From Neoarius graeffei (lineage: Eukaryota; Chordata; Actinopteri; Siluriformes; Ariidae): a stretch of DNA of 64,000 nt. This document shows positions 6,005 through 33,462 of the stretch, in pieces; positions within the stretch are counted from its first letter, which is position 1; every line of letters starts with the position of its first letter. Location of the stretch: positions 20,126,257-20,190,256 of the forward strand of contig NC_083583.1 in NCBI RefSeq assembly GCF_027579695.1, given 5' to 3'. Under the pieces are notes generated by a model. It worked only from the letters and a program-made list of their open reading frames with translations, did not search any database and was not told the DNA's origin. The position numbers and the translations under genes are program-made.

Positions 6005-6191
6005 TGATGGAGACGGGTGAACATCCTGTCCAGAAGAGAACAGATAAAAGCTGAGGAATTCTCCAAATTATGCAAAAGACAAGTGGATATTATTTGCCAA
6101 TCACATGAATTTTTCCAGAGACATGGACATAACTTTAACCATCTAAAAATCAAATAAATTAATAACCATACATATTTCTATTGTTCCATAG

Positions 6192-9100
6192 TTTTCACCA
6201 CAAATAAGATGAGGACAATGGAGAAGATGTTGAAAAACCCTGATGTTCATACACCCCATCCTCACAGAAAACCTCATTCAAGCAAGCTAGGTAGGAGACA
6301 CACACATACAATGTCTTGCAAAAGTATTCATCCCCCAAATGTTTGTCCTGTTTTGTCACATTAAAAGCTGGAATTAAAATGGATTTTTGGAGGTTTAGCA
6401 CCATTTGATTTAAACAACATGCCTACAGCTTTTAAGGTGCAAATTGTTGTTTTATTGTGACACAAACAATAATTAAAATGAAAAAACAGAAATCTGGAGT
6501 GTGCATAGGTATTAAACCATCGCAAACACCCCCAATCATACACCCCCCCCCCCCCCCCCCAAAAAAAAAGTCAATACTTTGTAGAGCCACCTTTTGCTGC
6601 AATTACAGCTGCAGATCTTTTGGTGTATGTCTCTATTAGCTTAGCACATCTAGCCTCTGGGATATTTGCCCATTCCTCAAGGCAAAACTGCTCCAACTCC
6701 TTCAAGTTAGATTGGTTGAGTTGGTGTACAGCAATCTTCAAGTGATGCCACAGATTCTCAGTTGGATTGAGGTCTGGGCTTTGATTAGGCCATTCCAAGA
6801 CATTTAAATGTTTCCCTTTAAACCACTCCAGTGTAGCTTTAGCAGTACGTTTAGGGTCATTGTCCTGCTGGAACGTGAACCTTCATCCCAGTCTCAAACC
6901 TCTGGCTGACTCAAACAGGTCTTCCTCCAGAATTGCCCTGTATTTAGTGCCATCCATCTTTCCTTCAGTCCTGACCAGCTTTCCTGTCCCTGCAGATGAA
7001 AAATGTCCCCACAGCATGATGCTGCCACCACCATGCTTCACTGTAGGAATGGTATTCTCAGGGTGTTGGGTTTGCGCCACACGTGGCATTTCCTGTGATG
7101 GCCAAAAAGATCAATTTTAGTCTCATTTGACCAGAGAATCTTCTTCCATGTGTTTGGAGAGTCTACCACATGCTGTTGGGCAAACTCCAAATGTGTTTTC
7201 TTAAGCAATGACTTTTTTCTGTCCACTCTTCCATAAAGCCTTGCTCTGTGGAGTGTACAGCTTAAAGTGGTCCTATGGACAGATACTCCCATCTCCACTG
7301 TGGATCTTTGCAGCTCCTTCAGTGTTATCAGTCTTTGTTGCATCTCTGATTAATGCCCTCCTTGCCCGGTCTGTGAGTTTTGGTGGGCAGCCTTCTCTTG
7401 TCAGGTTTGTAGTGCTGAGATATTCTTTCCATTTTGCTATAAGGGATTTATTGGTGGGTGGCACGGTGGTGTAGTGGTTAGCACTGTTGCCTCACAGCAA
7501 GAAGGTCCTGGGTTCAAGCCCAGCAGCCAATGAGGGCCTTTCTGTGTGGAGTTTGCATGTTCTCCCCGTGTCTGTGTGGGTTTCCTCTACAGTCCAAAGA
7601 CATGCAGGTTAGGTTAACTGGTGACTCTAAATTGACCGTAGGTATGAATGTGAGTGTGAATGGTTGTCTGTGTCTATGTGTCAGCCCTGTGATGACCTGG
7701 TGACTTGTCCAGGGTGTACCCCGCCTCTTGCCCATAGTCAGCTGGGATAGGCTCCAGCTTGCCTGCGACCCTGTACAGGATAAGCGGCTACAGATAATGG
7801 ATGGATTTAATGGTGCTCCCTGGGCTATTCAAAGTTTGGGATATTTTTTTTATAACCCAACCTTGATCCATACTTCTTCACAACTTTGTCTCTGACCTGT
7901 TTGGAGTGCTTCTTGGTTTTCATGTTGCTTTCTTAGTAGTGTTGCAGAGTCAGGGTCCTTCCAGAACAGGTTGATTTATACAGACATCATGTGACAGATC
8001 ATATATGACAGTTTGATTGCACACAGGTGAATCTTCATCAACTAATTATGTGACTGATGAAGTGAATTGGTTGGACCAGCTCTTATTTAGGGGTTTCATA
8101 TGAAAGGGGGTGAATACCTATGCACATTCCAGATTTCTGTTTTTTTCATCTTAATTATTGTTTGTGTCACAATAAAACAACAATTTGCACCTTTACAGTG
8201 GTAGGCATGTTGTGTACATCAAATGGTGCTACCCCTCCCCCCCCCAAAAAAAATCCATTTTAATTCCAGCTTTTAATGCGACAAACCAGGACAAACACCA
8301 AGGGGGATGAATACTTTTGCAAGACACTGTACACATACCCCCAAAGTTATAGCATTTATATGAGCCAGGTTCTTACTCTGTAGCCTTACTAGCTGAGATT
8401 TTACTCCAGGAGATGGCAGGAACTCTCACGGTGACGGCAATTACCTGCCTGATGGGTACGACATGTCTTTTCCTGGCCCTTTGATGAGGTGAGGCCTTCT
8501 TTCTCCTCTCATATACTACACACAAACTGAACATTAAATATGCAGGCTGTTTCAGCAGTAATGTTTGGAAACACATCACCAGGTTATCAAAGTGTATGTG
8601 CAGTAATCCATATTGACCTGTTGCAGCAAAACTATGAAGGTGAAAGGCTTGCTTCATTTTATCCAGACCAAATCCCAGCAGTGTCTTCAACATTTGGATG
8701 AACCTAACCAAAAGGAGGCCTATTTCTTTTGGAAGATTATGGAGCTTATGTGCAATAAAAATGGAGTAAGTGTTGTAGTTTTTTATGCGGCGATTGTTTA
8801 AGCACAATTACTTACAATAAATGTATCAAGTTGTTTTATCTGCAAGAAGGCAAAATTTTTCTGAATTGTAAGTGCATAAATGAATAAATTTACCTACAGT
8901 AAATGTGTAAGTTAAAGATGTTTCTTTTACAGAATGTATTGCTGGCTGAAGTCGCTACAGTCCTCTTCAAAGGTTACATACCTCTGAGGAACAAGGTATC
9001 AAATGTTTGTTTAATAACACATCAGCATCACCTGATGTGTCTGTATTGTATATTGCAACTGTGTATTTTTTGTGTTTTTTTATTTTTTACATGACAATTC

Positions 9101-10976
9101 CTGCTACAGCTAAGGGGTGGGAAGAACCAGGATGACTGGTGTCTTCCTCTGGCGCAACTGTTGTGCTTGGCTGATCCAGAAGATGACATCTTGAATGCTG
9201 TGGTTAAAATGGGAGAAACGCTTGGTATGGATCAGTAACAGTACTTTTTGACCTTCAGTTGTTGTCATCATATCATTAACTGTTAACTGTTTGACTGACC
9301 CAGATGTTTGATCTTTCATCTGCAGACTCCAAAGGACTGACCTATGCAGCACATATTTGCTATGTGGTGGCGCTGGAGGTGCTGGAACCATATCAAGGAT
9401 TCAGCTTTGAGCTCATTGGCTGTGACAGGTATTTTTTTTTGTGTGTGTGTGTGTGTGTGTGGGTGTGTGGGTGGGTGGGTGGGTAAGAGAGAGATTGTGC
9501 TTGGCTGATCCAGAAGATGACATCTTGTTGACTTGCTCTTTGTACCAGTTTGCCCGTCAGCCAATCAGCTGTGAGGGAAGCCATTGAGCGAACTGAGGTG
9601 TATGAATACTTCTGCTTCCTGACCTCAGGATTCGCTCAGCCAAACTTCCAGGTTGGACTTTCTCTTTCCTTCTTTTTAATATTGATGGGCTGAATTTAAG
9701 TATGAATCATTATACTAAGGCCCTGTCCACACGGCAACGGATTCAGGTGAATCTGATAAAATTGTTTATCATTTCAGCCTGTCGTCCACACAGCACTGGT
9801 GTTTTGGGTGCCCCAAAATGAAATCTTTTGAGAACGGGTTCCAGAGTGGAAAAATCTGGCAATGGCGCCGTTGTGAAGTCGTCTGGATGAGTAGAACGGA
9901 TTTGTTTATGATGACATCACAACCACATGACTGTCAGTGCTTCACGCCGGGTAGAAGTGTAATGAACTCGATGCGAGTTGTCAACAAATCCTATAACTTG
10001 GTTCATGAAACGCGCTTACAAAATATTTTCACTGCTTTCCAAAAACAAAAACAATCCCGCCAGCAAAAATAGGGGAAAAAAAAGGAGCGATCTCACCTCT
10101 TCAGATGTTGGTTTAAGTCCGACAATACATTCCTCAAAAAGAGCGTAGAAGAACAAAGTAATCCATCAACATGTAGCATTCAATTTATTCTGGACCATTA
10201 AAGAATTCTGGAGGATATCAGAATGTTGGCGTACTGGCTTCCATCTACCCCCATTCATTCCTCTTTCCGCGTCTTTCGTTTTACGCTACTGATTAATAAT
10301 CAAAACTTTATGTGGCTGATGCTACAGAAGAAGGGGTTTATGCGCATGTGTCTACTTCTTCTATTGTTCTGGTGTCTCCGATGGGACCGTCTTACAGTGC
10401 ACGTAGAGGTGTGGCATGTGTATTGCATCGTTTTCAGCAAGCGTTGCGTTGCCATATGTACCTGATATTTTACTGATCCGTTGCCCATGTGGACGTGAAA
10501 AAAAATCTCGTTGCCGTTGTCGTGTGGATGTAGCCTAAGATTGAATGACTGTCTGTCTTAGATCTACAAATACTATCACGCCAGCAGGCTCGCAGAGTCT
10601 GGCCTTGTTGATCAAGCCTTTGACTACTGCAAGACCATCGCTAGAGCAATTGCTACTTTCCCACATGAAATCACAAAGACCACGATGGAACTGACCATTG
10701 CGGTAAATATCAAACAAATTATCAATAGTTGTGAAACACTTTCAAGGTTTTAAATGCAAAATATTGTCTTTATCACCAATTTACTTGCCCTGTCTGTCTT
10801 GTAGCTGTCTGAGAGACTACACCAAGGGAAGGGAAAGGAACCCGAGTGGCTGATAAATCTTCGTCAGCTGCATGCAAATGATGTGTTTAAGATGAAAGAC
10901 TCAGAAAGTGGCCTTTTGACTACTGAGATGTTCCATCTCCTACGTCCATGTATGAAATTCCACATTACACCATGGG
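6192..10976 (+). CDS. Sec16-like central domain module (nine exons)
   Basis: The nine exons give about 336 residues resembling the conserved central domain of Sec16A/Sec16B, the scaffold of ER exit sites that binds Sec13 and Sec23. Diagnostic matches, in order: SFPGPL (about residues 51-56) followed by a helix ending [23 protein letters not shown]; a DDW...LAQLL segment; [54 protein letters not shown]; and [20 protein letters not shown] near the end. This order matches the helical ACE1/Sec23-binding region. The long N- and C-terminal disordered regions of full Sec16 are absent. The last exon ends in phase 1 after FHITPW, and its donor joins the first kinase exon in frame. The 6192-6290 exon is tentative. 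Confidence 0.72.
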
Positions 10977-13900
10977 GTATGTTAGAATCCACCATGTGCA
11001 CAAAAAAACTGTAATGAACATTTATGAATCAAAGAAAGTTTGTGAACTGATAACTCCTTAAAAATGAGTTGTAGAGAGAGACATGTTGGTGGTATGCTGT
11101 GTTTAAGAGGATGATGGGAGCCCAAAACTACACTGAAATCTAAGAATGTGTTTTTTTTCCCCCAGATAATTAATAATGATTTGTCAGCACAGATCTGTCA
11201 GCTCTTTAACAATTTACATTACAAAAAAGTCGAATCGTTTAGATTTATATACAACCCCAATTCCATACATTTGGGACACTGTGTAAAAGGTAAATAAAAA
11301 ACAGAATATGATGATTTGCAAATATCGGAAACCCTATATATCATTGAAAATAGTACAAAGACAACAGATCAAATGTTGAAACTGAGAAATGTTGTTGTTT
11401 TTTGAAAAATATATGCTCATTTTGGGCGGTACTGTGGTGTAGTGGTTAGCACTGTTGCCTAACAGCAAGAAGGTTCTGGGTTCAAGCCCAGTGCCTTTCT
11501 GTGTGGAGTTTGCATGTTCTCCCCATGTCTGCATGGGTTTCCTCCAGGTGCTTCGGTCTCTCCCACAGTCTAAAGACATACAGGTTAGGCTAATTGGTAG
11601 CTTGAAATTGACCGTAGGTGTGAATGGTTGTTTGTCTCCATATGTTGGCCCTGCAATGACCTGGCGACTTGTCCAGGGTGTACACTGCCTCTCACCCATA
11701 GTCAGCTGGGATAAGCTCCAGCTTGCCTGTGACCTGGTACAGGATAAGTGGCTACAGATAATGGATGGATGGATGCTCATTTTGAATTTGATGTCAGCAA
11801 CACATTTCAAAAAAGTTGGGACAAGTGCATGTTTACCACTGTGCTGCTTCGTCTCTACTTTTAACAACACTCTGTAAATGTTTGGGAACTATGGAGACCA
11901 ATTGCTGTAGTTTTGAAAGAGAAACATTGTCCTAATTTCAGTTGCTGAACAGTTTGCGGGTCACCTTTGTCATATTTTGTGCTTCATAATGCATCAATTG
12001 TTTTAAATGGGAGACAGGTCTGGACTGCAGGCAGGCCAGTTTAGCGCCTGGACTCTTTTACTATGGAGCCATGCAGTTTTAATATGTGCAGAAAGTGGTT
12101 TGGCATTGTTGTGCTGAAAGAAGGAAGGCTTTCTCTGAAAAAGATTTTGTCTGGATGGCAGCATATTGCTCTGAAATATGTATATATCATTCAGCATTAA
12201 TGATGCCTTCCTAGATGTACGAGTTACCAATGTCATGTACAGTGTCGTGTGCACCCTCATACCATCACAGATGCTGGCTTTTGAACTGTGCACTGATAAC
12301 AAGCCGGATGGTCCCTCTCCTCCTTAGCCTGGAGGACACGGTGTCCATGATTTCTAAAAAGAATTTCTACTTTTGATTCATCAGAGCTCGGGACAATTTT
12401 CCACTTCGCCTCAGTCCACCGTAAAAGAGCTCGGGCCCAGAGAAAGTGGCAGTGTTTCTGGATATTGTTTATATCTGGTTTTCACTTGCATTTGTGGATG
12501 CAGTAATGAACTGTTTTCCCAGACGATGGTTTTCTGAAGTGTTCTTGAGCCCATACAGTGATTTCCACTACAGACACGCATCTGCTTTTAATGCAGTGTC
12601 GCCTGAGGGCCTGAAGATCACAAGCATCCAATATCAGTTTTCATTCTTGTCTCTTGCATACAGAGATTTCTCCAGATTCTCTGAATCTTTTAATGATATT
12701 ATGTACCATAGATGATGTGATCCCCAAATTCTTTGCAAGTTTACATTGAGGAACATTATTCTTAAATTGTTGCATTGTTTGCCCATGCAGTCTTTCACAG
12801 AGCGGTGAACCCCTCCCCATCTTTACTTCTGAGAGACTGAGTCTCTCTGGGATGCTCTTTTTATACCCAATCATGTTATTGACCTGTTGCCAATTAGCCA
12901 AATTAGGATTTATTTTTTATTTTTTATTTTTAGCATTACATAACTTGTTCAGTCTTAACTGAACTTAACTGAACTGAAAAGTCCTAACTTTTCTGAAATG
13001 TGTTGCTGACATCAAATTCAAAATGATCATATATTTTTCAAAAAAACAATAACAAAAAATTATCAGCTTCAACATGTGATATGTTGTCTTTGTACTATTT
13101 GCAATGAAATATGGGGCTTGCAAATCATCATATTCTGTTTTTTTATCGACATTTTACACAATGTCCCACATTTTTGGAACTGGAATTGTATTTGCACCAA
13201 TTAAATTTTATTAAAATTTTATAAGCTTATCGGATCATATTTACCTACAGCATACATTCATTTTCTGGGTAAAAGACAGAAAGGATCAGAGCTTAGCTAG
13301 GTGGAAAGATGATTTCGGATTGATTTTTCAAAAATACTGCAAAGTGTAGAGACACTGAACATGCAGAGTGTGTAAGGTGAACATTTATTCATTGAAAGTT
13401 CTCTTGTTAAGACAACTGATTCACCTGATCGATTATAAAGTGGGTAGAAAATATGTGTACCTTTCACTCCCTTTCTGATTACTTTTTGTGTTAAAAATGT
13501 ACTGATTTTAGCAGGTACTCATGTTCAAGGTAGCTGAGACATTGACAACACATGTCTCATTCATTACTGTCTTCTGCAAGAGAAGACAAAGAACATGAAG
13601 CACTTTCATTCTTAGTTCAGTTTCACTTCATTGAATGATTGTCTGTTTGTTTAACAGAGGTGTTTGACTCACTGTACACTCCGGGAGAGATGCTGGGAGA
13701 AGGAGGTTTTGGGACTGTCTGCGAAGGAGTCCGTAATGCAGATGGCAAACAGGTAATAGGACTCCACATCTACAGTTAATTTGCACTGAACAACACAATG
13801 CATTACAACTTATGGACTGTATATTCCCTACTGAGGTTTTATATAAGAATGTAATTGTGTTATATGTGTGAAAAGGTTGCCATGAAATATTTAGACAAGG

Positions 13901-16900
13901 ATCAGCATGACAAGTTCATCACCATTGTAAGTAAACGTTACTTCTGAGATACTCCAGAGAAGCCATGGTGTAAATTTACTTGTTTGTGCCAACATAGTCA
14001 TAAACAATTCACCTCCCAATCATGATTTAGACCCAGATTTTATTATGGATCATCCATAATAGATTTCTGAGTCAGTACCAGTCCAAGCCTTTGTGTTTTA
14101 AAATCTCTGCTTACCATAGTTTTGGCCTATTCACTCTAAACCCATGCTAACTATATCTGTTCGTGTTTCAGCCTGGACAGACACAGCGCTTCCCTCGGGA
14201 GGTAGCTTTAATGCAAATGGTATCCAAGCCGTATCGCTGTGAGAATGTGCTGGAGCTGATAGAATGGTTCGAGATGTCCGATGGCTATGTCTTGATCTTG
14301 GAGCGACCCAGCCCCTGCATGGACCTCTATCAGTTCCAAAAAAGTTACAAATGTCGACTGTCAGAACCACTGGCTCAAATAATCATGCGTCAGGTGGTTC
14401 AGGCCGCACGCCATTGCTGTGACTGTGGTGTCCTTCACCGTGACATCAAGGCAGAGAATCTTCTCGTCAACACTGACACACTGGTAGTGAAGCTGATTGA
14501 CTTTGGCTGTGGTGATTTGCTGAAGGACACCCCCTACACGAGTTATGAAGGTAAAAGCATGTAGTATGGCTCCGACATGGGAGGAATACTGAAGCATGGA
14601 CGTGCGGGAAACGGTGTCAACACAGGCTTTATTTTAACTATTTTTGTTGCTTTTCAGCTTTACTAAACTTATTCACACACACACACAACATCAATTGACA
14701 ACAGGTGTAATGACTTTGCCACTCACCTTCCCTGGCCCTGCTCGATTCACAAACTGATGCTTGACCACGCCCAAGCTGCCACAGGGTATAACAGGTGTTT
14801 GGACAGGATAAAAAACGTGACATTTTTGTGACATTGCTGATCTCTCTTTTTCACTCAGGCACTTGGTCTTTCTTCCCTCCTGAGTGGATATGTGAGCGAG
14901 AGTATTTGGGTCGTCCTGCCACCATCTGGAGTCTGGGTGTTCTCCTGTTCAGCTTGGTGTGTGGATACTTGCCCTTTAATTACTTGGATGACATTGTTGA
15001 ACAAAAAATGCACGTGGCTCCTGATCTGTCTAGAGGTGAGAAAATGTGAAAGCATCACATTTAGACCTGGATAGTAAAGTTGGAAAACCTGCCTTACAGA
15101 ATTAATTAAACAGATCCATTCATTCTCAGAATTATTCATTGAACTGTAATTTCTATCTAAACATCTCTCATCACTACAAACAGGTTGCCGTGATCTGATA
15201 TTTTGGTGTCTGGAGCGAGACCCTCACTCTCGGCCAACGTTCAAGGAAATCCTCAGACATGAATGGTTAACGGAACCTCAGAACAAAGTCAAGGTTAGAC
15301 AGTGAGAAGAGAATAAACCTAATTATAAAGAGTGAAAACATGCTATACTAGTAACAGAGATTGTATTGAGACACTATTGAGATTGCGGGATAAGTATTGA
15401 GATAATCAATCTGTAAAAATAAAAACCCATTAACAGACAAAGTAATCTATGACTATATAAATATTAAGCTGAAAGTAATGTACCCAAACATGTCTAACAT
15501 GTTAATTTAAAGTGCCATTCCACCATTGGATATATTTTTTTGGCATAAAATACAATATATTTTATGACAACATGACTAGACAGAGAAATCTTTTAGCTTC
15601 AAAATGATATATCAAACATAATTTTTTGACAACGACAAGTATATTAATTTTGCGACCAAAGTCACCTACCCTTTTAATTTCCGCGCGGTAGTGAAACGTG
15701 ATGTCATCGGCAGGTTCCCCTTCTTGTGTACCATGTCACGTGTGACATGGCACAGATTATTAGCAATGGCGGATAGAACGCGATTGTCAGCTTCGGAAAA
15801 GAAGCGAAGGAAAATAGCAAGTGATGCCCAAAGGAGACGGTCGATGGTGAATATCGGCACAGCAATCAACAAGTGGAAATCGCGTTCTATCCACCATTGC
15901 TGATAATCTGTGCCACGTCACACGTGACGTCGTACACAAGAAGGGGAACCTGCTGATGACATCACGCGCGGAAATTAAAAGGGTAGGTGACTTTGGTCGC
16001 AAAATTAATATACTTGTCGTTGTCAAAAAATAATGTTTGATATATCATTTTGAAGCTAAAAGATTTCTCTGTCTAGTCATGTTGTCATAAAATATATTGT
16101 ATTTTATGCCAAAGAATACATCCAATGGTGGAATGGCACTTTAAGACTTGCAGACCTTTCTTGCAGTATCTAAACTAAACTAAAAGGTGTTTAAATTTAC
16201 TTTCCGAAGTTGTAATCTATTAGCAATCAAGTACTTGCATTACATGTAGTCAAATATTAGGCATTTCCAATATGATACTAAATCATATTTATGACACATG
16301 AATTCATGATGTACAATCCTTTTTTCTGTACAGGACCTAATGAAAATTCAGAAACCGGCTCTTCATCTTCCCCCTCTGGAGAGCCACATTACACGATGGG
16401 GTATGTTAGAATCCACCATTTTCCCTCCAAGAATATATTGAACATTTTTGATTCACACAGCAAGGAATGTACAGTAATGTGTAGTTAGCGAATTCATAAA
16501 GCAGTCAAAAGGTACTGTGGAGATTCCTACTTAATTGAATGATTGTCTGTTTGTTTAACAGAGGTGTTTGAGTCACTGTACACTCCAGGAGACATGCTGG
16601 GAGAAGGAGTTTTTGGGACTGTCTGCGCAGGAGTCCGTAATGCAGATGGCAAACAGGTAATAGGACTCCACATCTACAGTTAATTTGCACTGATCAGCAC
16701 AATGTATTACATCTTACAGACTGTATATTTCCTACTGAGGTTTTACATCAGAACATAATTATGTGCTATGTGTGTGAAAAGGTTGCCATGAAATATGTGG
16801 CCAAGCATGAACATGACAAGTTCATCACCATTGTAAGTAAACTTTACTTCTGAGATACTCCAGAAAAACCATAATGTAAATGTACAGTACTTGTTTGTGC

Positions 16901-19900
16901 TAACGTAGTTATAAACAATTGACCTCCCAATCATGTTTTCAACTCAGATATTATAATATATCTTCCATAATAGAGTCCCGAATCAGTACCAGTCCAAACC
17001 TTTGTGTTATTTCAAATATCTGCTTACCATAGTTTAGACCTATTCACTCCACACCCATGCTAACCATATCTGTTCGTGTTTCAGCCTGGAGAGACAAAGT
17101 GCCGTCCTCTGGAGGTAGCATTAATGGAAATGGTATCCAAGCCGTTTCGTTGTGAGAATGTGCTGGAGCTGATAGAATGGTTTGAGATGTCAGATGGCTA
17201 CGTCTTGATCTTGGAGCGACCCAGCCCCTGCATGGACCTCCATCAGTTCCGAAAAAGTCAAGAAGGTCGACTGTCAGAACCACTGGCTCAAATAATCATG
17301 CGTCAGGTGGTTCAGGCTGCACATCATTGCTGTGACTGTGGTGTCCTTCACCGTGATATTAAGGCAGAGAATCTTCTCATCAACCCTGACACACTGGAAG
17401 TGAAGCTGTTCAACTTTGGCTGCGGCGATTTGCTGAAGGACACCCCCTACACGAGTTATGAAGGTAAGGGCGTAATAGGTGTTGGGACATGTAACCCTGG
17501 TTACACTGTTAATAAATTTACATGACTCAATATGAACCAGTATCAGATGATTTTAAGAACACCTAGGAGCCCTACAGATGAATAGCAATATTAAGAGTTA
17601 CACACAGGAATGAATTTGAATAAACGTGTATTATTTCACAGTAACAACAACAACTTGTCTATTAGCCAAAATAAATAATAAACAAATAAAAATAATAAAG
17701 TGCGCACAAAAGGGGAAAAAAAAACTTTTGGCCCCTTAGTCTTTGAGCTTTAGTTTCAGTTTTATCATTGGGGCCCAGTAAATTTGTGTCAATGTCAGTG
17801 TTGTCCTATGACACCACGGAGCAAGGGAAGGAAAGGAAATCCAACTTCCGATAAATTAGTCTGACTCGCCATCCAGCAAATTGGAATTTCCTCTTCACAA
17901 AACCTTTATACTGTTGTGGACTCTGAGGATCTATGCTGAACTTCTACTTCAGTGGACTGGTGAAGATGCCTTCTTGGTATCAAACTCGACAGCAGACCAG
18001 CTATAAGACCCTTTTCAGTCACGTGACCTTCGTAAACGTGACCGCCATTTTGGACATGTAGTGGACTTCGGCTCGAATCGGTTTGAATGCGAGGAAGGCG
18101 ACAAACATAAAAGAAAAAGGAGCGAGATGCAGAAAACTGTATTTACTAGTTTACTGTAATTATGATCTGGCAGCTATTTACACCGGATCCAGTGTAAATA
18201 GCTGCCGGAGCCAACGTCCGAGCTTGCCGGAGCGCGCTCCGGCCGGCCGCGAGCTAGCGCGCTCCGGAACCTCGGACGTTGGCTCCGGCAGCTATTTACA
18301 CTGGATCCGGTGTAAATAGCTGCCAGATCATAATTACAGTAAACTAGAATGGAATGTTAACAGCAATGTAATGCTTTTTCTGGCTAATTTTATTTGTCTT
18401 ACCTCCAACAAAGTGGTCACTACACAAGTGTTGGTATGCCGCTATCCGTCTTCTCCGTCGGTCAGCATCTATGGGGATCCGATAAAATGATAACCCTTGC
18501 CTTGTTTGTTGATGGTTACTACATCCAGGTGCACAACAATATAGTGGCATGATGGAAGTCTTGCTGAAAATAAACACTTTCTTTGCTGCCGTTCCTCAAT
18601 GTTGGCTGTGGTAAACTACTGGTAGTACATGTCCAAAATGGCGGCCGCGTTTGTCGTGACGTCACGTGAAAAGGGTCCATACCTTAAAAAAAAAAAAAAA
18701 AACCTGACCGCTGAGCAGACCAAATTAGCCCGTCACTCATTGAACCTTGCACATCCAATTTCCAAGATCTTTAGACACTTTTGTACCTTTCAGGCAGTAG
18801 AAAAAGTTTGAACCAGTGTAGCTTCTTCGGTGTATTGTTTCTAGCAAAATGGCGCTCTCTCTTCAGAGCTCTCTTCGGATGATAGGTCTCTCTGGACAGA
18901 ATAAAAAATGTGACATTTTTGTGACATTGCTGATGGTTCTTCTCTCTTTTTCACTCAGGCACTTGGTCTTTCTTCCCTCCTGAGTGGATATGTGAGCGAG
19001 AGTATTTGGGTCGTCCTGCCACCATCTGGAGTCTGGGTGTTCTCCTGTTCAGCTTGGTGTGTGGATACTTGCCCTTTAATTACTTGGACGACATTGTTGA
19101 ACAAAAAATGCACATCGCTTCTGATCTGTCTAGAGGTGAGAAAATGTGAAAGCATCACATTTAGACCTGGATAGTAAAGTTGGAAAACCTGCCTTACAGA
19201 ATTAATTAAACAGATCCATTCATTCTCAATTAATCTTTGAACAATAATTTCTATCTAAACGTCTCTCTCATCACTACAAACAGGTTGCCGTGATCTGATA
19301 TTTTGGTGTCTGGAGCGAGACCCTCACTCTCGGCCAGCGTTCAAGGAAATCCTCAGACATGAATGGTTAACGGAACCTCAGAACAATGGCAAGGTTAGAC
19401 AGTGAGAAGAGAATAAACCTAATTATAAAGAGTGAAAACATGCTATACTAGTAACAGAGATTGTATTGAGATACTGTATTGAGATTGAGGGATAAGTATT
19501 GAGATAATCCATTTGTAAAAATAAAAACCCATTAACAGACAAAGTACACTGTACACTGGCTAGATGGCTTTATCAATGTTAAGCTGAAAATAATGTTAAC
19601 AAATATGTCTAACGTGTTTAAAAAACCATTAACAAAGTACACTGTACACTGTCTATTGAACAATTGTTCCACAAAATCGAGTCATATACGAGCTGATAGC
19701 CAACAAGACACATAGCACCGAGTTGGCTATAAGCCATATACAACGAGATTGATTAGAATAACTGTTTTATTATATCCACATTCACTGGATTTTGAGAAAC
19801 AGAGCACTTTTATTTTTATTGTTGGAAATTCGATAAATAAAAACTTTATACAAATGTCCGACAAAATCATTTCCACTTAGAATGTAAACAAAAGATATGT

Positions 19901-22900
19901 TCTTACCATCAAATACTTTTATTCCAGATTTTGTTGCTTTTTTGCATTTGTTGGGTTTTTGTTTTCGAGTAGAGTGTTTATTTCATCCTTGCTTGGTTGA
20001 GCAACACGCTCTGGCATTTTGTTTTTCTCTACTCACGGTATATGACCTGATAGCCTAGTAGTAGAGTAGCCAATCAGAGCGCGCAATTGCTCATACCCAG
20101 TCAACGTGGATAGAATAAATGGCTATATAAATATTAAGCTGAAAATAATGTTAACAGTTATGTCTGACATGTTAGTTTAAGACTTGCAGACCTTTCTTGC
20201 AGTATCTAAACTAAAGTAAAAGCTGTTCATATTTACTTTCTGAAGTTGTACAACCCCGATTCCAAAAAAGTTGGGACAAAGTACAAATTGAAAATAAAAA
20301 CGGAATGCAATAATTTACAAATCTCAAAAACTGATATTGTATTCACAATAGAACATAGACAACATATCAAATGTCGAAAGTGAGACATTTTGAAATTTCA
20401 TGCCAAATATTGGCTCATTTGAAATTTCATGACAGCAACACATCTCAAAAAAGTTGGGACAAATAGTGGAGCAATATCAGAAAGGAGTTCGACAGTGTAA
20501 AATTGCAAAGAGTTTGAACATATCATCATCTACAGTGCATAATATCATCAAAAGATTCAGAGAATCTGGAAGAATCTCTGTGCGTAAGGGTCAGGGCTGG
20601 AAAACCATACTGGGTGCCCGTGATCTTTGGGCCCTTAGACGGCACTGCATCACGTACAGGCATGCTTCTGTATTGGAAATCACAAAATGGGCTCAGGAAT
20701 ATTTCCAGAGAACATTATCTGTGAACACAATTCACTGTGCCATCTGCCGTTGCCAACTAAAACTCTATAGTTCAAAGAAGAAGCCGTATCTAAACATGAT
20801 CCAGAAGCGCAGACGTCTTCTCTGGGCCAAGGCTCATTTAAAATGGACTGTGGCAAAGTGGAAAACTGTTCTGTGGTCAGACGAATCAAAATTTGAAATT
20901 CTTTATGGAAATCAGAGACGCCGTGTCATTCGGACTAAAGAGGAGAAGGACGACCCAAGTTGTTATCAGCGCTCAGTTCAGAAGCCTGCATCTCTGATGG
21001 TATGGGGTTGCATTAGTGTGTGTGGCATGGGCAGCTTACACATCTGGAAAGACACCATCAATGCTGAAAGGTATATCCAGGTTCTAGAGCAACATATGCT
21101 CCCATCCAGACGACGTCTCTTTCAGGGAAGACCTTGCATTTTCCAACATGACAATGCCAAACCACATACTGCATCAATTACAGCATCATGGCTGCGTAGA
21201 AGAAGGGTCCGGGTACTGAACTGGCCAGCCTGCAGTCCAGATCTTTCACCCATAGAAAACATTTGGTGCATTATAAAACGGAAGATACGACAAAAAAGAC
21301 CTAAGACAGTTGAGCAACTAGAATCCTACATTAGACAAGAATGAATTAACATTCCTATCCCTAAACTTGAGCAACTTGTCTCCTCAGTCCCCAGACGTTT
21401 ACAGACTGTTGTAAAGAGAAAAGGGGATGTCTCACAGTGGTAAACATGGCCTTGTCCCAACTTTTTTGAGATGTGTTGTCATGAAATTTAAAATCACCTA
21501 ATTTTTCTCTTTAAATGATACATTTTCTCAGTTTCAACATTTGACATGTCATCTATGTTCTATTCTGAATAAAATATGGAATTTTGAAACTCCCACATCA
21601 TTGCATTCCGTTTTTATTTACAATTTGTTCTTTGTCCCAACTTTTTTGGAATCGGGGTTGTAATCTATTAGCCATCAAGTGCTTGCATTACTTGTACTCA
21701 AATATTAGGCATTTCCAATATGATACTAAATCCTATTTGTGCCACTTGAAATACGATGTACAATCCTTTTTTCTGTACAGAACCCAAAGAAAAGTGAGAA
21801 ACCTGCTCATCAACTAACTCCTCCGGAGAGCCATATTACACAATGGGGTATGTCAGAATCCACCATCTTCCCAAAAATATATATATTGAACATTTGATTA
21901 ATATATTTCATGAATCATATAAATATACATATTTATATTCATATATATTTGATTCAGCAAGGAATGTACAGTAATGTGTAGTTAGCGAATTCATAAAGCA
22001 GTCAAAAGGTACTGTGGAGATTCCTACTTAATTGAATGATTGTCTGTTTGTTTAACAGAGGTGTTTGAGTCACTGTACACTCTGGGAGAGATGCTGGGAG
22101 AAGGAGGTTTTGGGACTGCCTGCGCAGGAGTCCGTAATGCAGATGGCAAACAGGTAATAGGACTCCGCATCGACAGTTAATTTGCATTAATCAACACAAT
22201 GTATTACAATTTATGGACTGTATATTTCACACTGAGGTTTTATATTAGAACATAATTATGTGTTATGTGTTTTAAAAGGTTGTCATGAAATATGTGGCCA
22301 AGCATCAACATGACAAGTTCATCACCATTGTAAGTAAACTTTACTTCTGAGATACTCCAGAGAAGCCATCATGTAAATGTATTTGTTTGTGCTAATATAG
22401 TCATAAACATTCACCTCCCAATCATGTTTTTGACTCAGATTTAATTATGTATCATCCATAATAGATTTCCGAATCAGTACCAGTCTAAACCTTTGTGTTT
22501 TAAAATCTCTGCTTACCATAGACCTATTCACTCCAAACCCATGCTAACCATATCTGTTCGTGTTTCAGCCTGGAGAGACACAGTGCCGTCCTCTGGAGGT
22601 AGCATTAATGGAAATGGTATCCAAGCCATTTCGTTGTGAGAATGTGCTGGAGCTGATAGAATGGTTTGAGATGTCAGATGGCTACGTCTTGATCTTGGAG
22701 CGACCCAGCCCCTGCATGGACCTCCATCAGTTCCGAAAAAGTCAAGAAGGTCGACTGTCAGAACCACTGGCTCAAATAATCATGCGTCAGGTGGTTCAGG
22801 CTGCACATCATTGCTGTGACTGTGGTGTCCTTCACCGTGACATTAAGGCAGAGAATCTTCTCATCAACCCTGACACACTGGAAGTGAAGCTGATCGACTT

Positions 22901-25900
22901 TGGCTGTGGCGATTTGCTGAAGGACACCCCCTACATGAGTTATGAAGGTAAGGGCATAATAGGTGTTTGGGCAGGATAAAAAAATGTGACATTTTTATGA
23001 CATTGCTGATGGTTCTTCAATCTTTTTCACTCAGGCACTTGGTCTTTCTTCCCTCCTGAGTGGATATGTGAGCGAGAGTATTTGGGTCGTCCTGCCACCA
23101 TCTGGAGTCTGGGTGTTCTCCTGTTCAACTTGGTGTGTGGATACTTGCCCTTTAATTACTTGGACGACATTGTTGAACAAAAAATGCACGTGGCTCCTGA
23201 TCTGTCTAGAGGTGAGAAAATGTGAAAGCATCACATTTAGACCTGGATAGTAAAGTTGGAAAACCTGCCTTACAGAATTAATTAAACAGATCCATTCATT
23301 CTCAGAATTATTCATTGAACTGTAATTTCTATCTAAACATCTCTCATCACTACAAACAGGTTGCCGTGATCTGATATTTTGGTGCCTGGAGCGAGACCCT
23401 CACTCTCGGCCAACGTTCAAGGAAATCCTCAGACATGAATGGTTAACGGAACCTCAGAACAAAGTCAAGGTTAGACAGTGAGAAGAGAATAAACCTAATT
23501 ATAAAGAGTGAAAACATGCTATACTAGTAACAAAGATTGTATTGAGATACTGTATTGAGATTGCAGGATAAGTATTGAGATAATCAATTTGTAAAAATAA
23601 AAACCCATTAACAAAGTAATCTATGGCTATATAAATATTAAGCTGAAAATAATGTACCCAAACATGTCTAACACATTAATTTAAGACCTGCAGACCTTTC
23701 TTGCAGTATCTAAACTAAAGTAAAACTGTTTATTTTTACTTTCTGAAGTTGTAATCTGTTATCCATCACATGCTTGCATTACTTGTAGTCAAATATTAGG
23801 CATTTCCAATATGATACTAAGTCATATTTATGACACATGAAATATGATGTACAATCCTTTTTTCTATACAGTACCCAATGAAAAGTGGGAAACCTGCTCA
23901 TCAGCTTCCTCCTCCGGAGAGCCACATTACACGATGGCGTATGTTAGAATCCACAATTTTCCCAAAAAATATATATATTGAATGAACATTTTTGATTCAC
24001 CCAGGAAGGAATGTTGAGTAATGTGTAGCTAGCGAATTCATAAAGCAGTCAAAAGGTACTGTGGAGATTCCAACTTAGTTGAATGTTTGTTTAATAGAGG
24101 AGTTTGAGTCACTGTACACTCCGAGAAAGTTGCTGAGAGAAAGAGGCTTCGGGACTGCCTGCACAGGAGTCCGTATCGCAGATGGCAAACAGGTAATAGG
24201 ACTCCATATCTACAGTTAATTTGCACTGATCAACAAAATGCAGGATTTGTTCAGCATTACAAATTATGGAAGTCCCTGAGATACAAGCACAGGGTTTGAC
24301 AACAACACTTGCCCGACTGCCCGGGACAAGTAAAATGCTACGTTGGGACAGCAGAATGAAAATCATGTTTTTGGTAGGGACCTGTTTAGTATCTGAACAA
24401 TGTAATTGACACCAATTCAATTCATTTGAATGTTTAACCTCTGGAAAATTTGGTCTAATTTATTTGTGTGTCCAGTCAAAATAAAGAAATTCCACTATTT
24501 GTTGCCAGTCACCTGCAAAGTGAGGCTTGCAGCAAAATGTTGGCGAAATTAGGAGTATGGGGCTAAACGAGTATGATTTCCTAATGGAAAATGTTTCACA
24601 GGGTTGCTCAAACTAACAGTGTCAATAACAATCACTGACATGAATTAAATCAGCAACCTTTTGATCAACAATGTCAAATTGGAGCTGTATAAAAATTATG
24701 GACTGCATATTTTCTGCTGAAGTTTTACAATAAAAATGTAATTATGTTTTGTATTTGTGAACAGGTTGCAATTAAATATCTGAAAAAGAGACAGAACACC
24801 AAATTCATCACCACTGTAAGTAAACTTCTGCTTCTGAGATACTACAGAGACGACATAAGGTCAAAAGAACAACCACTTTATAGACCAAATTATATGTCCA
24901 TTTACTCATTCCTGGTAAAATAATCAAAAACAATTTGCCTTCAAGTCATGTTTCAGATTCAGATTTTATTCCCTATCATCCATAATAGAGTTCCAAGTCA
25001 GTACCAGTCCAAGCCTTTGTGTTTTAACATTGCTGCTTGCCATAGTTTTGATGTATTCACTCCACACCCACGCTAACCATATCTGTTCGTGTTTCAGCCT
25101 GGAGAGACACTGTGCCGTCCTCTGGAGGTAGCATTAATGGAAATGGTATCCAAGCCATTTCGCTGTGAGAATGTGCTGGAGCTGATAGAATGGTTCGAGA
25201 TGTCAGATGGCTATGTCTTGATCTTGGAGCTACCCAGCCCCTGCATGGATCTGCAGAAATTCCTCAAACATCACAAAGGTCGATTGTCAGAAGCACTGGC
25301 TCAGGTAATCATGCGTCAGGTGATTCAGGCTGTTCGTCACTGCTGTGACTGTGGTGTCCTTCAACATGACATCAAGTTAGAGAATCTTCTCATCAACCCT
25401 GACACACTGGTAGTGAAGCTGATCAGCTTTGGCTGTGGCGATTTGCTGAAGGACACCCCCTACACGAGTTATGAAGGTAAGGGCATAATAGTTATGAGAC
25501 AAAATAAAAAACAATACAGTGGAGAATCATTTTTTGCAACATTGCTGATGATGCACCTTCTCTCTTTTTGCTCAGGCACTTGGCCTTGCGTCCCGCCTGA
25601 GTGGGTATGTGAAAGAGAGTATTTGGGTCGCCCTGCTACCATGTGGAATCTGGGCGTTCTCCTGTTCAACTTGGTATGCGGATACTTGCCCTTTCATAAT
25701 GAGGACGGCACTGTTGATCAGAAGATGCACTTCTTTTCTGGCCTGTCTGCAAGTGAGAAAATATCGAAGCATCACCATTTAGACCCGTTGAAGTTGTAAA
25801 CCCGGCATGACAAAATGAATTGATTTTTTTTAAAAAACAATACTTAACGTACTGTCTAAAATATCTTATCACGGCACACACAGGTTGCTACAATCTGATA

Positions 25901-25987
25901 TGGTGGTGTCTGGACCTGGACCCTGACTCTCGGCCAACCTTTGAGGAAATCCTCAGCCATGAATGGTTTAAAATGCTTCAAAACTAA
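6209..25987 (+). CDS. Sec16-like domain fused to four tandem PIM-like kinase domains
   Basis: Multi-exon gene model. Exons: 6209-6290, 8398-8488, 8627-8765, 8933-8995, 9110-9224, 9326-9428, 9549-9651, 10562-10702, 10805-10976 (Sec16-like); 13658-13752, 13876-13926, 14172-14550, 14859-15035, 15184-15293, 16334-16400 (kinase 1); 16562-16656, 16782-16832, 17085-17463, 18959-19135, 19284-19393, 21781-21847 (kinase 2); 22059-22153, 22279-22329, 22569-22947, 23035-23211, 23360-23469, 23872-23938 (kinase 3); 24098-24192, 24765-24815, 25098-25476, 25576-25752, 25884-25987 (kinase 4, stop TAA). Introns follow GT-AG, all phases agree, and exon lengths sum to 4,452 nt (1,483 codons plus stop). The first two exons and the ATG at 6209 are the weakest part: an in-frame TAA lies at 6155 and no promoter is recognised. 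I infer one fused transcript. The alternative is several genes whose separate ends I cannot see. Confidence 0.7.
6571..7464 (-). pseudogene. Tc1-like transposase pseudogene
   Basis: A broken DDE-type transposase of the Tc1 group, which would cut and paste the surrounding element at TA sites. The order on the minus strand is normal: an N-terminal DNA-binding region (7273-7464), the first catalytic block (7038-7343), the SIMLWG block (6883-7089) and the C-terminal [10 protein letters not shown] block (6571-6798). Neighbouring blocks lie in different frames, and a SINE follows at the N-terminal edge. Confidence 0.85.
7456..7802 (+). mobile_element. tRNA-derived SINE, near full length
   Basis: Has the A-box-like TGGTGTAGTGGTTAG, the B-box-like GGGTTCAAGCCC, the long body, and a 3' end ggataagcggctacagataa followed by ATGG units. 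A 12-bp target duplication with one mismatch flanks it (ggatttattggt at 7444, ggatttaatggt at 7803), showing retroposition into the Tc1-like element. Confidence 0.92.
9440..9484. repeat. GT/GGGT microsatellite
   Basis: A GT run grading into GGGT just downstream of the donor of the 9326-9428 exon. It explains the histidine-rich frames on the opposite strand. Confidence 0.85.
9720..10534. mobile_element. hAT-like MITE in a Sec16-module intron
   Basis: Inverted ends (gccctgtccacacggcaacg at 9720; cgttgccgttgtcgtgtgga then tgtagc ending 10534) are bounded by ctaag repeats at 9715-9719 and 10535-10539. No transposase is seen. The CACACGGCAACG-type terminus recalls common fish non-autonomous hAT elements, but only 5 bp of flanking duplication is clear. 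Confidence 0.6.
11252..13188 (-). mobile_element. decayed Tc1/mariner-like element before kinase 1
   Basis: Flanked by TA on both sides, with termini caaccccaattcc (left) and ggaactggaattg (right). Minus-strand transposase remnants are a helix-turn-helix block (12641-12901, [17 protein letters not shown]) and a HNNAKPL...[12 protein letters not shown] block (12003-12302). Stops and frameshifts inactivate it. A SINE at 11424-11772 is nested in it. Confidence 0.88.
11424..11772 (+). mobile_element. tRNA-derived SINE nested in the Tc1-like element
   Basis: Complete copy with A- and B-box-like motifs and ATGG tail. A perfect 11-bp duplication atgctcatttt (11413-11423 and 11773-11783) shows it retroposed into the Tc1-like element after that element had inserted. 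Confidence 0.93.
13658..16400 (+). CDS. PIM-like kinase unit 1 (six exons, catalytically intact)
   Basis: Serine/threonine kinase domain of PIM type, 293 residues. Visible motifs: glycine loop LGEGGFGTV (exon 13658), VAMK lysine (exon 13876), REVALM for the helix-C glutamate, PIM-style hinge [12 protein letters not shown], catalytic loop [22 protein letters not shown] (the DFG metal site), PPEW in place of the usual [20 protein letters not shown], and [13 protein letters not shown] near the C-terminus. All key residues are present. A sixth exon (16334-16400) adds a linker ending SHITRW instead of a stop, and splices in phase 1 to unit 2. PIM kinases are small, constitutively active growth and survival kinases. 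The substrate here is unknown. Confidence 0.85.
14560..14790. other. extra sequence in kinase 1 intron 3
   Basis: The matching intron of unit 3 (22948-23034) is only 87 bp, so about 230 bp here is an insertion or was lost from the other copies. It includes a short CA run near 14675. No terminal repeats are evident. Confidence 0.5.
15511..16140. mobile_element. foldback MITE with TTAA target duplication
   Basis: Nearly the entire element is an inverted repeat. It opens agtgccattccaccattgga and closes with the complement, and the two arms of about 270 bp match with few differences. TTAA lies on both sides (15507-15510, 16141-16144). The homologous intron of kinase 3 reads ttaatttaag with no insert, which proves the empty site and the 4-bp duplication. 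TTAA targeting fits piggyBac- or Kolobok-mobilised MITEs. No coding capacity is seen. Confidence 0.85.
16562..21847 (+). CDS. PIM-like kinase unit 2 (six exons; DFG changed to NFG)
   Basis: Second 293-residue kinase unit with the same exon structure and lengths as unit 1 (95, 51, 379, 177, 110, 67 nt). The glycine loop is LGEGVFGTV, the lysine VAMK is kept, and the catalytic loop [10 protein letters not shown] is intact. The metal-binding DFG has become NFG (KLFNFGCGD, exon 17085-17463), which normally impairs catalysis, so this may be a pseudokinase or a weak enzyme. Two introns are enlarged by mobile sequence (17489-18890, and 19550-20160 plus the Tc1 at 20251-21660), yet the exons stay open. 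The last exon ends SHITQW in phase 1 and joins unit 3. Confidence 0.83.
18145..18348. repeat. near-perfect 200-bp palindrome
   Basis: The left arm starts gtttactgtaattatgatct and the right arm ends with its complement agatcataattacagtaaac. Between them each arm carries cagctatttacaccggatcc-type sequence and a very GC-rich core around 18220-18260. It would extrude as a long hairpin. Confidence 0.85.
18344..18550 (-). pseudogene. THAP zinc-finger fragment of a transposase
   Basis: Reading from 18550 downward gives [15 protein letters not shown], then GLSFYRIP, then after a shortened middle [11 protein letters not shown]. This is the C2CH pattern of a THAP domain (CxxC near the start, CxxH near the end) with roughly a dozen central residues missing, and no transposase core follows. 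The element is non-autonomous. Confidence 0.7.
19656..20105. other. unclassified insertion plus local duplication in kinase 2 intron 5
   Basis: Relative to units 1 and 3, this intron has a repeated copy of 'ttaagctgaaaataatg' with the neighbouring 'aacaaagtacactgtacact' motif, and about 450 bp of extra AT-rich sequence containing tatatgacctgatagcc-type motifs. No ORF and no clear termini were found. Confidence 0.5.
20251..21660 (+). mobile_element. Tc1/mariner-like transposon, nearly intact
   Basis: TA-flanked 1.41-kb element with inverted ends caaccccgattccaaaaaag and its complement ending 21660. The homologous introns of kinase units 1 and 3 read gaagttgtaatct without it, giving the empty site directly. 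It lies in the sense orientation relative to the host gene. Confidence 0.95.
20454..21433 (+). pseudogene. Tc1-like transposase with one premature stop
   Basis: A 296-codon open frame is followed by TGA at 21342-21344, and the same frame then continues to a natural end (KGDVSQW, stop near 21443). One nonsense change, at a position usually tryptophan, removes only the C-terminal tail. Visible: N-terminal helix-turn-helix ([16 protein letters not shown]), first catalytic Asp in LWSDESKFE, second in FQHDNAKPH, and Glu in [11 protein letters not shown], giving the DD34E layout. No ATG lies at the expected start; the frame opens at TTG in TTGGGACAA. Confidence 0.85.
22059..23938 (+). CDS. PIM-like kinase unit 3 (six exons, compact copy)
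   Basis: Third 293-residue unit, with introns free of large insertions, so it shows the ancestral spacing. Glycine loop LGEGGFGTA; the lysine block is VVMK rather than VAMK; catalytic loop [10 protein letters not shown] and LIDFGCGD are intact; PPEW and SRPTFKEIL are present. It should be catalytically competent unless the alanine-to-valine change matters. Exon 22569-22947 is almost identical in sequence to 17085-17463 of unit 2. The linker exon (23872-23938) ends SHITRW plus C, giving glutamine rather than glutamate at the junction to unit 4. Confidence 0.85.
24098..25987 (+). CDS. PIM-like kinase unit 4 (five exons, pseudokinase, carries the stop)
   Basis: Most diverged unit, 268 residues, ending at TAA (25985-25987). 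The glycine loop is eroded (LRERGFGTA). The lysine is kept (VAIK). The catalytic loop reads [11 protein letters not shown], so HRD is QHD, although the aspartate and following lysine remain. DFG has become SFG (KLISFGCGD), removing the metal-binding aspartate. PPEW and SRPTFEEIL are retained. It is probably a pseudokinase. The stop arises at the codon aligned to AAC-AAA in units 1-3, just before the donor that in them leads to the linker exon, so the chain ends here. Intron 1 holds an unclassified insertion of about 450 bp. Confidence 0.82.
24240..24700. other. extra sequence in kinase 4 intron 1
   Basis: The matching introns of units 1-3 are about 125 bp; here it is 572 bp. The extra segment contains a 'cccgactgcccgggacaagt' motif and no ORF. 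No termini are defined. Confidence 0.5.
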
Positions 25988-32738: not shown

Positions 32739-32984
32739 GTCTATGGTGTTGAGATGGTCGGTGAGTTGTTGAGTGTGTCCCCTCTTCACTTTTCCTAGTA
32801 TGTCATCCACGTAACGCAGGGGTCACCAAACTTTTTTCTCTGGGGGCCACATTGTCGTTCCTGACTGTGATGGGGGGCCGGGGTCGGGTCAGCTATATCA
32901 CATAGAATTGTATGACCCAGACAAATATGACCACCAGCAGGCCTCATTGTGTAGTAGAGATTACTAGCCTGGCACGGCCATCCC

Positions 32985-33462
32985 CACTACTATATCCCCA
33001 CTACTATACCCACACTACTATACCCACACTACTATATCCACACTACTATATCCACACTACTATATCCCCACTACTATACCCACACTACTATACCCACAGT
33101 ACTATATCCCCACACTACTATATCCCCACTACTATATCCCCACTACTATATCCCCACTACTATACCCACACTACTATACCCACAGTACTATATCCCCACA
33201 CTACTATATCCCCACTACTATATCCACACTACTATATCCCCACTACTATACCCACACTACTATACCCACAGTACTATATCCCCACACTACTATATCCCCA
33301 CTACTATATCCCCACTACTATACCCACACTACTATACCCACAGTACTATATCCCCACACTACTATATCCCCACTACTATATCCCCACTACTATACCCACA
33401 CTACTATATCAACACTACTATATCCCCACTACTATATCCCCCACTACTATATCAACACTTGA
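32985..33462 (+). repeat. CACTACTATA(T/C)CC minisatellite
   Basis: About forty copies of an 11-13-bp unit (ccccactactatat and variants) lie inside the second hAT element. Longer-period groups repeat too, which shows expansion in steps. The long tyrosine-rich frame across it is a repeat artefact. Confidence 0.92.

Follow-up and report, generated by a model that had tools for sequence, protein, structure and literature searches.

The 64,000-nucleotide stretch of Neoarius graeffei DNA analysed here (the window) probably holds one gene of a catfish family of fusion kinases, in which a helical solenoid related to the Sec16 central domain precedes an array of up to four PIM-type kinases. Judged by its sequence, the gene is a member of this Sec16-PIM family and not a single oddity: the in-frame fusion of a Sec16-like part with PIM kinases, as read in the initial annotation, recurs in predicted proteins of 14 catfish species and in a transcript-like contig (P0025; relatives are given here by such numbers). 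We regard the joining of the Sec16-like part to at least one kinase as very likely and a message carrying two or more kinases as likely, and would give even chances to a single message that encodes all four. In this family, found here only in catfish, a coat-protein solenoid has been recruited as the N-terminal module of expanding PIM-type kinases, and its one locus in the window illustrates how a kinase array can grow.

Gene model, kinase units and linker exons

Rebuilt from the exons of the window, the model comprises 32 exons on the plus strand between positions 6209 and 25987, giving a coding sequence of 4440 nt and a protein of 1479 residues with a single terminal stop. GT...AG borders are found at 31 of 31 introns and phases agree across the gene, in keeping with the continuous frame originally described for this locus. 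The phase-1 join of the Sec16-like part to the first kinase exon, part of the same description, holds when the last Sec16-like exon ends at 10976, while ending it instead at 10975 loses the frame and introduces 57 stops. The ATG at 6209 looks like a plausible true start, the nearest in-frame stop upstream being at 6155, and exon 1 (6209–6290), which supplies the start codon and a disordered N-terminus, is weakly similar to the N-termini of P0001 (E 0.1) and P0008 (E 0.03). The Sec16-like part continues with exon 2 (8410–8488, ending in SFPGPLM and aligned to yeast Sec16 3mzk_B), exons 3 (8627–8765) and 4 (8933–8995), exons 5 (9110–9224, where the PF12931 match starts), 6 (9326–9428), 7 (9549–9651) and 8 (10562–10702), for all four of which Pfam joins the rebuilt model as evidence, and exon 9 (10805–10976), whose tail (HITPW, phase 1) and donor are common to the linkers described below. 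A chance reading frame for the whole gene is ruled out by its 1479 open codons and the relatives in 14 named species, and the predicted relatives from these species also rule out an assembly artefact of one genome. Elsewhere in the window, a 162-aa open frame with a hydrophobic stretch lies upstream of the Sec16-like exons (1311–1799) and has no Pfam match at E 0.01, and an Rfam search of the window gave no match at gathering thresholds.

Pfam finds four Pkinase matches in the 1479-residue protein. PIM1–3 are single-domain kinases of about 300 residues, and this single-kinase architecture is not matched by the window frame, with its Sec16-like part and four kinase domains. When unit 3, the only unit searched singly, was compared by sequence with the PDB, human PIM-1 was the best match (E=4e-73), followed by PIM-2 with others far lower, and the family profile likewise ranked PIM-1 and then PIM-2 at the top, others again far lower. 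The model of relative P0004 has PIM1 as its top fold match (46% identity), with only PIM1 entries in the best 50 Foldseek matches, a result that is uninformative on the solenoid. The PPE(W) segment is retained in the kinase units.

All four units lie on the plus strand and consist of five exons each. Unit 1 (13658–15293; exons 13658–13752, 13876–13926, 14172–14550, 14859–15035 and 15184–15293) and unit 3 (22059–23469; exons 22059–22153, 22279–22329, 22569–22947, 23035–23211 and 23360–23469) keep the G-loop, catalytic Lys, HRD and DFG. In unit 2 (16562–19393; exons 16562–16656, 16782–16832, 17085–17463, 18959–19135 and 19284–19393) DFG has become NFG, and unit 4 (24098–25987; exons 24098–24192, 24765–24815, 25098–25476, 25576–25752 and 25884–25987, the stop lying inside this last exon) has a broken G-loop, QHD for HRD and SFG for DFG; by these motifs units 2 and 4 look like pseudokinases. 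A count of catalytic residues in 74 chosen relatives, with 19 incomplete domains dropped and 73 complete enough to be scored, found Lys, HRD-Asp and DFG-Asp kept in 70 of the 73. The HRD arginine is lost in 14 of these domains and the DFG Asp in one (the first kinase of P0011), as against two of the four window units, so that the catalytic losses in units 2 and 4 are unusual for the family. A leucine at the catalytic Lys of the second P0001 kinase was attributed to an apparently mis-modelled exon and not counted as inactivity. The losses in units 2 and 4 would fit regulatory pseudokinases or decay alike, and the dN/dS of 0.46–0.74 between units does not decide. Units 1–3 have a mutual dS of 0.03–0.11, and unit 4 a dN/dS of about 0.5 at a dS of about 0.3. 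The introns of units 1–3, at 87–100% identity, resemble one another about as closely as the exons do, and units 1 and 3 share an identical last intron over 148 bases; together with the dN/dS range, this likeness of introns and exons means that any constraint on the copies is slight or of too recent origin to be visible.

Linker exons of 22 residues follow unit 1 (16334–16400), unit 2 (21781–21847) and unit 3 (23872–23938), all on the plus strand; linkers 1 and 3 contain an in-frame ATG, in place of which linker 2 has AAG. Each linker exon ends in a near copy of the final 17 nt of the last Sec16 exon (1, 2 and 2 mismatches in linkers 1, 2 and 3), about 50 nt of the intron after that exon recur after the linkers, and at the peptide level the linkers can be aligned with the tail of the Sec16 exon, both in the window and in relatives. 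Linker end and intron are thus a copy of the end of the last Sec16 exon, which implies that the array grew by repeating a cassette; on sequence grounds this cassette is composed of the Sec16-exon tail, donor, intron and five kinase exons. With the tail and donor of the exon before it included in the cassette, each new copy stays in frame. By chance, about 35% of 22-codon linkers would be open, and the three in this gene are copies of one another, so the window alone offers moderate support for the array, to which the linkers of relatives add more. The junction between units 3 and 4 is the weakest, its donor (GGC/GTATGT) scoring 2.1 and its acceptor 1.3 where the other two junctions reach 6.4 and 6.4, on a rough scale with approximate weights.

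Catfish relatives and tandem kinases

A search with the Sec16-like part plus unit 1 found 586 proteins, and PF12931 and PF00069 occur together in 70 of the best 120 according to precomputed Pfam assignments, an affirmative outcome for the proteome search for Sec16 domain plus Pkinase proposed in the initial annotation. The two-domain relatives bearing a species name among these best 120 are all catfish, of 14 species: two Hemibagrus, three Tachysurus, two Ictalurus, Ameiurus, two Clarias, Silurus, Pangasius, Pangasianodon and Neoarius. Neoarius belongs to the Siluroidei, and the other eight genera we take to be siluroid catfish. With the Sec16-like part alone as query, in a search restricted to proteins of 331–1055 residues and relatives sharing exact words, 53 matches were obtained, all catfish by name and 49 with both domains, the exceptions being P0231, P0232 and P0233 (without PF00069) and P0234 (without PF12931). 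Canonical Sec16 was not among these 53 matches, and the source of the solenoid is thus not shown by the search. As in these relatives, PF12931 and Pkinase stand in one open frame with an ITPW-type junction in the window protein. P0025, a protein of 611 aa with PF12931 and Pkinase in a contig of 2397 bases, probably represents a spliced transcript, since the contig is too short for an intron-bearing gene and the Sec16-like part with unit 1 spans 9 kb here; an intron-less retrocopy is possible. The family is hidden by the annotation names of its members, which include aurora kinase-like, akt-1, MARK-A, FGF receptor-like and PAS kinase-like. No published description of a Sec16-PIM fusion was found by title and abstract, nor any for Sec16 with PIM kinase in fish or Sec16 with a kinase in catfish, in a literature search that took in broader topics in part and left subscription papers mostly outside; this agrees with the earlier impression of an architecture not known to be described. 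The sequences are already public as predictions under misleading names, and as far as these searches show the family seems undescribed.

Tandem kinases also extend beyond the window. A kinase-linker-kinase junction is found in predicted proteins of H. wyckioides (P0001, P0006, P0010), H. guttatus (P0002, P0003, P0014), T. fulvidraco (P0005, P0015), T. vachellii (P0043) and C. magur (P0128), the second kinase being present only in its first part in P0005, P0006, P0010, P0015, P0043 and P0128. The linkers of P0001, P0002, P0005, P0014 and P0043 are without Met and hence are not start exons; that of P0128 has one. Predicted proteins of Hemibagrus, Tachysurus and Clarias, with their tandem kinases and common linker, give the array of the initial annotation a counterpart; that one transcript spans all four kinases is less well supported, given the KVRQ-stop and AATAAA after units 1–3. 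A tree built on 49 kinase domains places all four units of the window in one group with P0072 and the second kinases of Hemibagrus (support 98/92), and first kinases form a separate, weakly supported group (87/42). This grouping indicates that tandem kinases are probably older than the lineage split, and we read the sequences as two tandem kinases before the lineages split, followed by copying and conversion in Neoarius graeffei. Unit 1 adjoins the Sec16-like part yet groups with second and not first kinases, for which conversion or loss is needed.

The tandem models of relatives are gene predictions, some of them plainly chimeric: P0127 includes a Tc1-like transposase, P0128 a phosphatase and NAD kinase, and P0006 an unrelated tail. 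Clarias P0011 and P0013 are predicted in the order kinase-Sec16-kinase, which is either real or a merger of neighbouring genes. A hydrophobic N-terminal module (LACAAGMLALTxAGYCAYRWLKR) stands ahead of Sec16-PIM in P0009 and of a single PIM kinase in P0072 (H. wyckioides), and could be another exchangeable 5' module or a product of gene-model mixing. Among the best 120 matches, five of the nine Trichomycterus rows have a PH domain on a PIM-like kinase (confirmed for P0090), and some predicted Brachyhypopomus proteins combine HEAT/CLASP-type repeats with such a kinase. These proteins share with the window gene a PIM-like kinase with an extra N-terminal domain, but their partner differs from Sec16 and their bearers are a loricarioid catfish (Trichomycterus) and a knifefish (Brachyhypopomus). 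The domain assignments suggest that N-terminal modules may have been captured repeatedly in otophysan fish. Vertebrate PIM1–3 and fish PIM-related (pimr) kinases have kinase sequence and fold in common with the catfish units, and Danio P0077 and P0130 contain two PIM-type kinases each, like the catfish tandem arrangement; the Danio proteins among the matches listed have no PF12931, whereas the catfish gene places a Sec16 solenoid before up to four kinases.

The Sec16-like part and ER exit sites

PF12931 (Sec16 Sec23-binding / TPR_Sec16) matches residues 129–290 (E=1.5e-21; 77.9 bits against a curated cut-off of 22) over profile positions 99–274 of 298, and the closest solved structure by sequence is yeast Sec16 (3mzk_B, E=5e-6). 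Within the first 332 residues PF12932 is marginal (E=0.00064, 20.6 bits, under the cut-off of 23) and its match begins only at profile position 53 of 119. Twelve Sec16-PIM-type proteins were scanned for this domain. The match starts at 43–51 in P0004, P0005, P0032, P0037, P0025 and P0231 and at 22 in P0018, so that seven of the eight matching proteins, the window protein included, begin at position 43 or later, and four more (P0019, P0022, P0053, P0058) have no match at E 0.01. We assume that the N-terminal half of PF12932 corresponds to the blade inserted into Sec13. AlphaFold models of P0004 (mean pLDDT 82.3) and P0001 (78.7) consist of about 40 disordered residues and 11 helices, then the kinase or kinases, with no strand ahead of the solenoid; the relative domain placement in these models, with pTM of 0.50 and 0.40, respectively, was not used.

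On this combined sequence and model evidence the Sec13-binding blade appears to be missing from the catfish fusion, although P0018 may keep part of it. According to a figure legend, the Sec16A central domain binds Sec13 via a beta-blade, and the same source assigns Sec23 binding to the C-terminal region (PMC7619307); the window protein has neither this region nor the remaining parts of Sec16A. The catfish protein thus has in common with SEC16A and SEC16B a PF12931 domain, a weak PF12932 and a helical N-terminal part in models, but is apparently without the Sec13-binding blade and other Sec16 regions, and is fused to kinases. Docking of the kinase array on ER exit sites via Sec16-Sec13 or Sec16-Sec23 contacts is accordingly an improbable reading, and the tethering to COPII exit sites that had been envisaged for this protein lacks support. 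Both the strength of the PF12931 and yeast Sec16 matches and the early start of the P0018 match speak for such docking, as does SEC16B, which has no more than the central domain in common with SEC16A yet binds SEC13 (PMC13226660). Against it stand the late or missing PF12932 matches, the lack of a modelled strand before the solenoid, and the absence here of the Sec13 beta-blade and C-terminal Sec23-binding region as these are described for Sec16A in PMC7619307, and COPII docking is not the default reading.

Transcript form, decay and possible role

Exon E, the last kinase exon of each unit, bears on how many messages the array produces. If exon E of units 1–3 is left unspliced, it reaches KVRQ-stop, with an AATAAA from 7 nt past the stop codon: in unit 1 the read-through TGA is at 15303–15305 and AATAAA at 15312–15317 (together 15303–15317), in unit 2 the stop is at 19403 and AATAAA at 19412, and in unit 3 these are at 23479 and 23488, all on the plus strand. 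The spaces of 161, 211 and 159 bp originally taken as gaps between units are introns after the linker exons, and the distances from exon E to the linker are 1040, 2387 and 402 bp for units 1, 2 and 3; since the unspliced exon reaches the stop and AATAAA, the argument that there was little room for a polyadenylation site fails. The exon runs on in units 1–3 and contains a stop in unit 4, a pattern shared with Hemibagrus first versus second kinases. P0008 is predicted to end in KVRQ, and P0004, P0007 and P0012 go from exon E into other short tails.

These ends are an argument for a rival view, in which a Sec16-PIM gene with one kinase ends at the KVRQ-stop after unit 1 and is followed by separate single PIM genes, each starting at an ATG in its ‘linker’ exon. 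The predicted end of P0008, the in-frame ATG of linkers 1 and 3, the single kinase predicted in most relatives with counted kinase domains, and P0072, a single kinase joined by a linker to a different N-terminus, all agree with separate genes. This explanation is nevertheless rather unlikely, since the ATG is replaced by AAG in linker 2, the five Met-free linkers of relatives could not serve as starts, the end of the linker is the copied end of an internal Sec16 exon, and only unit 4 has its stop within exon E. As some relatives' models are chimeric, predictions alone cannot settle the choice between one message and several. A different challenge is posed by decay, in which recent tandem copies are drifting to pseudogenes with no function past the first kinase. 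The excess of DFG Asp losses over the relatives' domains, the dN/dS values along with introns of units 1–3 about as alike as exons, the mobile-element insertions in introns and the weak splice pair between units 3 and 4 would all be expected of such an array, but 1479 codons without stop or frameshift, the dN/dS of unit 4 at its greater dS, and the tandem kinases also predicted in Hemibagrus count against it, and we consider it unlikely.

The preferred reading, a Sec16-PIM fusion with an array of up to four kinases, suggests the following picture. The N-terminal 11-helix piece would be a shortened form of the Sec16 central domain (ancestral coatomer element 1, ACE1), removed from its COPII context, probably a protein-binding or self-associating scaffold that may group constitutively active PIM-type kinases. 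The kinase part would have expanded by tandem copying of the cassette described above. Phosphorylation would be expected of units 1 and 3, and for units 2 and 4, with the DFG aspartate lost, partner binding or regulation is the probable function. The read-through stop and AATAAA may cut some of the messages short behind any of units 1–3, which would yield products with one to four kinases; if translated whole, the array would be a natural multi-kinase chain of active and probably inactive members.

By analogy with induced fish PIM kinases, the cellular role would most likely be stress or infection-related signalling. A review describes sixteen PIM kinases as raised in zebrafish kidney after SVCV infection, and three pan-PIM inhibitors as blocking viral entry (PMC8138431); the 2020 paper by Pereiro that it cites states in its title that PIM kinases promote viral entry, and PMC11139271 merely cites the SVCV-PIM paper. 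Taken from another fish, these results are a lead that would speak for a link to infection, not to defence. Another study names seven pimr genes whose promoters are targeted by methylation remodelling in zebrafish embryos (PMC6624265), a result that would accord instead with a role in the germline or in early development. Zebrafish pim1, pim2 and pim3 are treated in PMC3530609, and the words pim and moloney are absent from PMC4535885. Far more speculative, and very improbable in our estimate, is a siluroid animal counterpart of the plant tandem kinase-pseudokinase immune proteins, in which a coat-released ACE1 solenoid would scaffold active and dead PIM kinases, multiplied by exon-cassette duplication, to sense, or serve as decoys for, pathogen factors directed at the secretory pathway or at PIM kinases, with parallel PH or HEAT versions in other fish lineages. 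The plant proteins (such as WTK1/Yr15) would have in common with the window gene, if its units form one chain, tandem kinases of which some by their motifs are catalytically impaired, a likeness of arrangement only, and they belong to other kinase families than the PIM-type catfish units; 92 of them are described in PMC6170490 as having no additional conserved domains.

Mobile and repeated sequences were also noted in and around the gene. Tc1-like transposase fragments, recognised by eye, lie on the minus strand in intron 1 of the Sec16-like part (6571–7491), MITE-like nested inverted repeats with arms of 34, 152 and 89 nt in the intron that leads from unit 1 to linker 1 (15507–16144), and an inverted repeat with 114-nt arms within a unit 2 intron (18112–18381). 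A Tc1-like element (20249–21662) sits in the intron separating unit 2 from linker 2; its inverted ends measure 189 nt (81% complementary), and it contains an open transposase-like frame of 303 aa. Beyond the gene, a minisatellite of about 34 copies of a 14-bp unit (ATCCACACTACTAT) occupies 32980–33459, and minus-strand frames of 410 and 832 aa at 37214–41714 resemble, by eye, a Pao/BEL-type retroelement.
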